From Alphaproteobacteria bacterium (GTDB lineage: Bacteria > Pseudomonadota > Alphaproteobacteria > Rs-D84): 33,290 bases of DNA. Below, piece after piece: positions 2,677 through 5,652 of this stretch. The DNA lies in assembly GCA_017617915.1 (NCBI GenBank), contig JAFZVH010000057.1:1-33290 (forward strand). The letters run 5' to 3'. Numbering within the stretch: the first letter of the stretch is position 1; each line of letters opens with the position of its first letter. Both the position numbers and the translations under genes were made by a program. Below the pieces are notes generated by a model. It saw nothing but the letters and a program-made list of their open reading frames with translations. It did not search any database and had not been told where the DNA came from.

Positions 2677-3177
2677 ATGAAAATAAGCAATAATGGTATA
2701 AATATTCTGAAACAGCTTGAAGGCTGTGTCAAAGTTGGTGATAAACACATTATATATGATGATCAAACGGGCAGGGCCGTTGGGGCAAATGCGCCTTTGC
2801 CACGTGGTGCAACCATAGGTTATGGGCATTTGATTAAATCCGGTGAAAATTTTAGAAACGGAATAACCGAAGCCCAAGCCACAGCATTGTTGCGCGCCGA
2901 CGTTGCGGTAGCAGAGAGCATAGTGCAAAATGTTATTACAGGGCCACTATCGCAAAACCAGTTTGATGCGCTTGTTATATTTGCGTATAACATCGGCGCA
3001 AAGAATTTTGCAAATTCAACAGTTGTAAAATATGTGAACAACCCAAAGTTTCACAGCGCAGTCTATCCAACATTAGAATCGGCGTGGCGTGCATGGAATA
3101 AATCGGGCGGTCGCGAAATGTCGGGACTGAATAACCGCAGAAACACGGAATGGGTGTTATTTAACGCTGTTTCATAA
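2677..3177 (+). CDS. Phage-type lysozyme (glycoside hydrolase family 24 endolysin)
   Basis: This 166-aa muramidase should cleave the glycan strand of peptidoglycan. It is a complete T4/P21-type lysozyme: the N-terminal QLEGC segment carries the catalytic Glu (about residue 15), followed by YDD and TIGYGHLI, which supply the other active-site residues. Further conserved blocks are QFDALVIFAYNIGA and the C-terminal GLNNRRNTEW. No signal peptide or membrane anchor is seen, so export would need a holin, which is not next to it. The start has an AAGGA site about 9 nt upstream. The gene stands alone behind its own strong promoter and a double-hairpin leader. It may be a prophage remnant or part of a dispersed phage or gene-transfer-agent system with the genes at 31912-33290. 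Confidence 0.92.
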   Translation: MKISNNGINILKQLEGCVKVGDKHIIYDDQTGRAVGANAPLPRGATIGYGHLIKSGENFRNGITEAQATALLRADVAVAESIVQNVITGPLSQNQFDALVIFAYNIGAKNFANSTVVKYVNNPKFHSAVYPTLESAWRAWNKSGGREMSGLNNRRNTEWVLFNAVS

Positions 3178-5025: not shown

Positions 5026-5199
5026 ATGGCATCAAAGAAAGGTAATCACGAAATTATCAAACTGGAAAACAAAGAAACCGGTTATTTTTATACTGTGACG
5101 AAAAACAATAAAACTGCTACGGGCAAGGTGAAACGTCGTAAATACGATCCAAAATTGCGCAAGCATGTCGAAATGACCGAAGCGAAAATGTCACACTAG
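5026..5199 (+). CDS. rpmG: 50S ribosomal protein L33
   Basis: This 57-aa basic protein is ribosomal protein L33 of the large subunit. The sequence has the family's features: a Lys-rich N-terminus, the TGYFYTVTKN strand segment, the KVKRRKYDPKLRKHV block and a short acidic tail. It lacks the two Cys-x-x-Cys pairs of zinc-binding L33, so it is the zinc-independent form, as usual in proteobacteria. It is a single-gene unit with its own promoter and a strong terminator directly downstream (5222-5250). Confidence 0.95.
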   Translation: MASKKGNHEIIKLENKETGYFYTVTKNNKTATGKVKRRKYDPKLRKHVEMTEAKMSH

Positions 5200-5257: not shown

Positions 5258-5286
5258 TTGCAATATCAATATTTATAAGATATAAT
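5258..5286 (+). promoter_or_regulatory. Promoter of the structured RNA
   Basis: A -35 TTGCAA (5258-5263), a 17-bp spacer and a perfect -10 TATAAT (5281-5286). Transcription should begin about 5292, immediately before the first hairpin of the RNA. Confidence 0.8.
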
Positions 5287-5291
5287 ACTTA

Positions 5292-5471
5292 TGCATTGGC
5301 GGGTTGCCAATGTGGGTGTAGACAGCCCTTTATTACCTCAATACGTCAGAGATGACGTGAAATATCCAACCATAAATGGTTGGAGTTTGCCGAATATATT
5401 GAATAAGGCAACCAATACTTATTGAGGTTATTGTTGTCTATGCTACAACCAGTTTTTTTACTGGTTTTTTT
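5292..5471 (+). ncRNA. Candidate structured non-coding RNA, about 180 nt, multi-branched
   Basis: No gene of normal size fits here, but the sequence folds densely. A 5' hairpin pairs CATTGGC (5294-5300) with GCCAATG (5306-5312). An outer stem joins GTGTAGACA (about 5316-5324) to TGTCTATGC (about 5435-5443). Inside it, ACCTCAATA (5335-5343) pairs with TATTGAGGT (5420-5428). That stem closes three hairpins: ACGTCA/TGACGT with a GAGA (GNRA) loop, CCAACCA/TGGTTGG, and TTGCC/GGCAA. The RNA ends in a rho-independent terminator, AACCAGT/ACTGGTT plus T run (5447-5471). Promoter and terminator bracket it exactly. It could be a stand-alone sRNA or a terminated leader of the small gene at 5497. I do not see the signature elements of tmRNA, RNase P, SRP RNA or 6S RNA. 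Confidence 0.75.
5447..5471 (+). terminator. Terminator ending the structured RNA
   Basis: AACCAGT (5447-5453) and ACTGGTT (5460-5466) form a 7-bp stem with a T-only loop, then T5467-5471. It ends 26 nt before the ATG of the 51-aa gene. The AACC of its 5' arm could alternatively pair with GGTT at 5303 in the 5' hairpin region, so a switch between structures is possible. Confidence 0.75.
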
Positions 5472-5496
5472 AATTCAAAAAAAGAAAGGACAAAAA

Positions 5497-5652
5497 ATGT
5501 CAAAGACCAAAACCAATCAAGATTCAAACAAAGAAGAACTGATGATGGCGATTTTAGATTTTTATGCCAAACACCCCAGATACAGAATGTCGCAAGGCGA
5601 ATTTGTCGGTTTAATTTGTGCACTTAGTCAACAAATGCTAAAAGATATTTAA
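5497..5652 (+). CDS. Small hypothetical protein, 51 aa
   Basis: This 51-aa peptide begins MSKTKTNQDS and then has an amphipathic stretch, EELMMAILDFYAKHPRYRMSQGEFVGLICALSQQML, with no membrane segment or Cys motif. The start at 5497 follows AAAGGA about 6 nt upstream, which favours it over the in-frame ATG at 5422 inside the structured RNA. Its only visible route of expression is read-through of the terminator at 5447-5471, which suggests the RNA may control it. It converges with parC, whose stop is 15 nt away. No function recognised. Confidence 0.6.
   Translation: MSKTKTNQDSNKEELMMAILDFYAKHPRYRMSQGEFVGLICALSQQMLKDI

Follow-up and report, generated by a model that had tools for sequence, protein, structure and literature searches.

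The window, as we call the whole stretch of 33,290 nucleotides analysed here, belongs to a genome of Candidatus Enterousia, a genus of the order Rs-D84 with reduced genomes (PMC12306168). Between rpmG (5026-5199) and a gene for a 51-aa protein (5497-5652) it encodes a structured RNA with its own promoter and intrinsic terminator; the RNA elements described below and the 51-aa gene are all on the forward strand. The promoter is of the sigma-70 type (5258-5286; TTGCAA-17 nt-TATAAT). A promoter scan by itself does not rise above chance (5 found, 3.5 expected); the TATAAT is kept at the same position across other copies of the RNA, with a perfect match in 84/165 copies against 16/165 in shuffles. 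The RNA (5291-5471) folds at -66.6 kcal/mol (z = -7.1, with 0/200 shuffles as good), in agreement with the original prediction, made from the sequence alone, that pairing here is denser than chance. The reverse strand is also well folded (z = -5.7), so folding alone does not prove the strand. All the elements that the prediction listed, namely a promoter, a 5' hairpin, two long-range stems, three inner hairpins and a terminator, are present. It lacked a pairing between 5378-5386 and 5442-5450, two hairpins (5413-5417:5429-5433 and 5314-5317/5325-5328) and the fact that the RNA is multi-copy. The Rfam covariance-model search that it proposed gave no significant match for the window copy, only chance matches, even at lax settings.

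Along the RNA the elements follow in the order P0, P1a (with a1 in its loop), b1, P3, P4, P5, P6 (with b' in its loop), a' and terminator. P0 (5293-5313, paired as 5293-5300/5306-5313) is a 5' hairpin seen in the fold and is the counterpart of the c4-a1b1 5' hairpin in phage P1. P1a (5314-5328) is supported by the fold and by covariation in 109 copies. Its loop carries the a1 address (5317-5324), which pairs with a' (5435-5442) to form helix P1, and the b1 address (5335-5343) pairs with b' (5420-5428) to form helix P2. P3 (5344-5357), a hairpin with a GAGA loop, is optional in the family according to the fold and the covariation analysis; the GNRA loop, which had been read as a sign of a tertiary fold, occurs in just 18/109 copies and is not a family trait. 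P4 (5365-5384, paired as 5365-5372/5377-5384; fold and covariation) masks the 5' arm of a C4-type outer stem. That stem, AT (5378-5386/5442-5450), belongs to a module at 5378-5450 that resembles C4 and sRNA-Xcc1, begins with GGU, and comprises AT, P5, P6 and a', as judged from pairing across copies, model alignment and PMC5320573. Within it, P5 (5387-5411) has a near-invariant loop in the copy alignment, GAAUAUAUUGAAUAA (5392-5406), and P6 (5413-5433) is supported by its pairing in copies compared with shuffles. After a', the family has CUCCAACC and the window copy CUACAACC, running into the terminator (5447-5471; hairpin 5447-5466 plus U-tract, from a terminator scan), which shares part of its 5' arm with the 3' arm of AT.

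The 51-aa protein (MSKTKTNQDSNKEEL...), whose Shine-Dalgarno (SD) sequence lies at about 5486-5490, is probably the product of the regulated gene, given its position and the paralogues behind three further copies of the RNA in the genome. Thus, 4/5 copies in the source genome lie ahead of paralogues of this family, whose members (window 5497-5652; C29, C16 and C17 in genome G000) share a DSNKEEL motif. The window protein itself has no Pfam match. Elsewhere in the window, an ORF at 2677-3177 (MKISNNGINILKQLEG...) resembles a phage-type lysozyme, judging from the ORF list alone.

Using blastn in the source genome and its relatives we recovered further copies, and built from 21 hand-cut copies a covariance model (R1), followed by the wider models R2 and R3. 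The source genome has 5 copies; counting it, 41/59 close relatives carry the RNA, with a maximum of 45 copies in one genome of ~1 Mb. Across the order Rs-D84 it occurs in 178/201 genomes and 19/23 genera. Among 385 sampled alphaproteobacterial genomes R3 is positive in 28. Of these, 24 are from beyond the genus and span about 15 further families, where the copies are diverged. The sole match outside the class, in a 349-genome sample of the phylum (G641, L233), is a palindrome that matches on both strands and is probably false. The RNA is also found on three contigs called viral (IMG/VR; L195, L196 and L197), and blastn gave no match for the window copy against phages or for the diverged copy L257 against plasmids. 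Our literature search, from which subscription papers were largely out of reach, returned no description of this RNA family. As Rfam misses nearly all family copies, routine genome annotation misses them too.

Covariation among these homologues settles the RNA structure. In 50 diverse copies all 31 of the modelled pairs changed on both sides, and the covariation score is 0.775, compared with 0.196 in shuffles and at most 0.13 for slid partners. Both sides changed at 8/8 pairs of a1 with a', and at 7/7 pairs of the 5335-5343/5420-5428 stem, the one singled out in the original prediction for a check on compensatory changes. P1a and P6, which are outside the models, nevertheless covary: at least 4 pairs of P6 form in 102/109 copies, where 53 are expected from shuffles, with pair types that include CAAU/AUUG, CUAU/AUAG, CUAC/GUAG and CUGU/ACAG, and CCGU/ACGG in distant copies. 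We considered P2 and P6 as mutually exclusive helices and do not claim this, because a loop-strand pseudoknot with a 2-nt crossing permits both by geometry. The sequence of the P5 loop is conserved beyond its pairing. P1 and P2 are hypervariable addresses. Over the 15 positions of a1 and b1, copies within one genome differ on average by 7.8, and in each of 50 copies compared the address pair is distinct within its own genome; such divergent pairs support a role as addresses.

The 3' strand of P4, GGUUGGAG, is complementary not only to its own 5' arm but also to CUCCAACC, the start of the terminator, and the latter pairing is helix AT. Although AT is part of no model, at least 8 contiguous pairs form in 179/187 copies, and 9-11 pairs in 21/21 later matches, most of them from other families. 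Many of these later helices have wholly new sequence, such as GACCGGAAG/CUUCCGGUC (L250) and GGGCGGAUUUU/AAAAUCCGCCC. The two arms of P4 and the terminator arm likewise stay matched to one another through large sequence change, for instance in GGCGAGAGGU/ACCUCUCGCC (L203) and GUCGGGGUG/CACCCCGAC (L028), and AT is retained where P4 is degraded (L210, L078). In the window copy AT has 8/9 pairs, with one mismatch (5383/5445). A loose scan finds a terminator-like hairpin in 159/163 copies, compared with 97/163 in shuffles, and its 5' arm begins within the AT arm in 146 of the 163 copies. Since the 3' arm of the C4-type outer stem also goes into the terminator, the two structures are mutually exclusive. 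Folded in isolation, each of the 157 modules tested forms the outer stem. In median energies, calculated for isolated pieces without pseudoknots, the module (-20.9 kcal/mol) is balanced against P4 (-10.2) and the terminator (-10.7) taken together as two states. Comparison across copies shows the helices, the position of the RNA before genes, and the exclusion of AT with both P4 and the terminator.

A mutually exclusive terminator and antiterminator is what a riboswitch would have, and the conserved pair found here agrees to this extent with the earlier suggestion of a possible riboswitch. If the conserved P5 loop were a binding site for a metabolite, this would account for its near-invariance, the interlocked helices and the many copies ahead of genes for exported proteins. 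We regard this as improbable, since the hypervariable P1 and P2 addresses fit antisense systems rather than aptamers, and the relatives of known function (C4 and IsrK) are antisense or trans-activated. As for a particular ligand, GGDEF is absent from all 18 genus genomes searched, so c-di-GMP is unlikely in the genus.

The genes behind the RNA bear on its function. An SD and start codon lie 25-85 nt past the core (median 50) in 130/160 copies, compared with 14% of random positions and 27/163 in a mirror control. Many copies without a close SD and start are upstream members of tandem arrays or stand before decayed genes. In a crude test 65/130 downstream proteins look exported, and 39 of the 130 form one cluster of small HTH-like proteins, several with matches to Pfam HTH_3, HTH_19 or HTH_31. 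In other families the genes behind the RNA, judged by reading rather than by profile, encode lipoproteins, outer-membrane, pilin-like and HTH proteins. The RNA could be thought a mobile or selfish repeat with no regulatory role, given its high and variable copy number and tandem copies. This is very improbable, because the compensatory changes over about 15 families and the placement of 81% of copies before an SD and gene call for selection on the RNA. Nor do we think it likely that the RNA is a protein-responsive leader, in which an RNA-binding protein on the P5 loop would favour AT. Such a leader would fit the conservation of this loop beyond pairing and the small HTH proteins often encoded downstream, but proteins of the HTH_3 type are DNA binders as a rule.

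The known RNA closest to the 3' half is sRNA-Xcc1 (RF02221). Against its Rfam gathering score of 53 bits, the window copy has no match up to E 10, and two diverged family members, which our own covariance model had picked up, lie above the cut-off (L257, 66.2 bits; L255, 56.2 bits), with several others at 44-52 bits. The 87-nt Rfam model aligns in register: its outer stem, enclosing two hairpins, is AT, its first hairpin P5 and its second P6, and the first hairpin has an AAUAC...GAAU internal loop as in P5. Unlike the leader family, the model is without the 5' half (P0, a1, b1, P3, P4) and the terminator overlap. From the register of the alignment, sRNA-Xcc1 as defined by Rfam thus appears to cover just the 3' module of a longer RNA. 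It is known from Xanthomonas and Xylella, where in Xylella it is multi-copy and in tandem, and it lies upstream of symE in integrons (PMC12189769, PMC12444791); a title cited in PMC12189769 describes it as trans-acting. Our literature search found no established mechanism for it. RF02221 is listed without a clan, and its layout is nevertheless that of C4 (clan CL00128).

The whole leader is laid out like the C4 locus of phages P1 and P7 (C4, RF01695; c4-a1b1, RF03163), with which it shares a promoter, a 5' hairpin, a hairpin with a1 in its loop, b1, a P4-like hairpin and the module. The phage P1 record annotates a1, b1, C4, a2 and b2 in this layout, with a1 (L262, 2256-2262) in a hairpin loop, b1 at 2270-2277 and C4 RNA at 2344-2420, in which b' is in the second loop and a' follows. 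The leader family likewise presents a1 in the loop of a hairpin, with b1 after it, and both lie upstream of a C4 fold that holds their complements a' and b'; P1, P2, P1a and P6 covary. R3 aligns over its full length to the P1 locus in the same register, weakly (10.3 bits, E 0.019 in 501 nt), and the 5' half of two family members matches c4-a1b1, also weakly (26-30 bits); in Rfam searches RF01695 did not match the window copy or its relatives. RNase P cleaves C4 at its GGW start (Hartmann 1995, cited by PMC5320573 and PMC11143913), and at the equivalent point the leaders of the order have a nearly invariant GGU (5378 in the window). In contrast to phage P1, where a2/b2 targets lie at the icd ribosome-binding site, the leaders of the order lack such targets and have a terminator in their place. 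P1 C4 lacks the conserved GAAUA...GAAUAA loop of the leader-family P5, and the genes behind the leaders, unlike those of C4, are chromosomal and mostly not antirepressors. Homology to C4 would rest on layout and the bridge provided by sRNA-Xcc1, which do not fully separate common descent from convergence. With this anatomy, and with diverged members above the sRNA-Xcc1 threshold, the RNA is not the stand-alone new sRNA class that the original prediction held possible.

Based on these comparisons, we consider it fairly likely that the RNA is a cis-acting leader (an attenuator) of the C4/sRNA-Xcc1 type, with copy-specific addresses, that controls whether the gene behind it is read. Transcription from the promoter would yield an RNA of ~180 nt. 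Its 5' half displays two short addresses, of which a1 sits in a hairpin loop and b1 follows closely; its 3' half can form a C4-like module in which AT encloses two hairpins, the second of them with b' in its loop, and a' lies next to that hairpin. When the leader is OFF, a1:a' and b1:b' would be paired and the terminator would form, with the AT 5' arm masked by P4. In the ON state, AT would capture the arm required by the terminator and RNA polymerase would continue into the gene. We infer that AT formation means readthrough and that P1/P2 and P4 favour termination. The balance could be shifted by an RNA in trans with the same address, or by another signal on the conserved P5 loop. By analogy with C4, RNase P could release the module at the GGU. 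Like IsrK, which targets its own long transcript, this product or the terminated RNA may in turn regulate in trans those leaders that share its address.

The RNAs could instead be trans-acting antisense RNAs, with a module cut by RNase P that regulates other mRNAs through a' and b', and a downstream gene that is a passenger or is read through. C4 provides a precedent (P1 annotation; RNase P processing as cited in PMC5320573 and PMC11143913), sRNA-Xcc1 is trans-acting going by the title cited in PMC12189769, and the tandem copies and the distinct addresses within each genome would also fit. We regard this as rather unlikely, because the downstream gene lacks a2/b2-like targets: among 107 copies of the order these show no excess for b' (5.32 compared with 5.37 in shuffles) and a marginal one for a'. 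The tight 40-60 nt SD spacing and the AT/terminator overlap also call for a cis role. Exceptions with a2/b2-type repeats are the phage-like L257 and L211 and the phages Aaphi23 and VaK. In L210 (2259-2396) and L211 (genome G365) the downstream sequence repeats addresses, GCATATA in both and TTAGAAC in L211, which is possibly phage-type C4 control in an alphaproteobacterium.

Points against cis attenuation are the AT mismatch of the window copy and the existence of arrays, with as many as five tandem RNAs ahead of a single gene at L139, which hint at an RNA that is also able to function alone. In the L139 array (L139:3961-5043) the five copies lie ~240 nt apart, with promoter-like boxes between them, ahead of a single HTH gene, and an SD and start are close behind the last copy only.

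Other multi-copy or terminated RNAs resemble the leaders in part. IsrK of the Gifsy-1 prophage (RF01394) is a small RNA that ends in a terminator, and readthrough yields the mRNA of the gene that follows; the short form in turn targets the long one in trans (PMC4825925). Unlike the leaders, it acts on orf45/anrP translation, and the similarity of the models is weak. The Group 1 sRNAs of Acinetobacter baumannii are chromosomal, multi-copy and C4-like, with a variable a' and apparent cleavage at GGW, and the accessible text of PMC5320573 describes for them no terminator overlap or large downstream set of surface genes. Bartonella Brt1-9 are multi-copy structured RNAs of ~200 nt with a possible terminator, directly before small trp HTH genes (PMC5387305). 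When 41 Bartonella genomes were searched with R3, none had a convincing match, and those weak matches that were examined lay at dnaA or were chance-like.

Returning to the cis-acting leader, an RNA built like phage C4, present in dozens of copies per genome in gut Alphaproteobacteria, lies ahead of genes for surface proteins and regulators and probably decides whether each of them is read. This joins sRNA-Xcc1, the C4 immunity RNA of phage P1 and an unannotated family that fills up to 45 sites in a ~1 Mb genome, and supplies sRNA-Xcc1 with a full-length version and with a model open to testing, in which its outer stem mediates attenuation. More tentatively, the C4 design may have been multiplied into a genome-wide switchboard of dozens of leaders. 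Each leader, with an a1/b1 and a'/b' of its own, would then control a surface-protein or regulator gene independently of the others, and terminated RNAs would work in trans on leaders whose address matches theirs. If the addresses do act in trans, a large network of RNAs would govern the surface proteins of very reduced gut bacteria. In the phages Aaphi23 (L263:1384-1621) and VaK (L264:1389-1617), we found an unannotated RNA of the sRNA-Xcc1/C4 type immediately upstream of ant or kilA-N genes; repeats that resemble a1/b1 cover the ribosome-binding site, as in C4 control.
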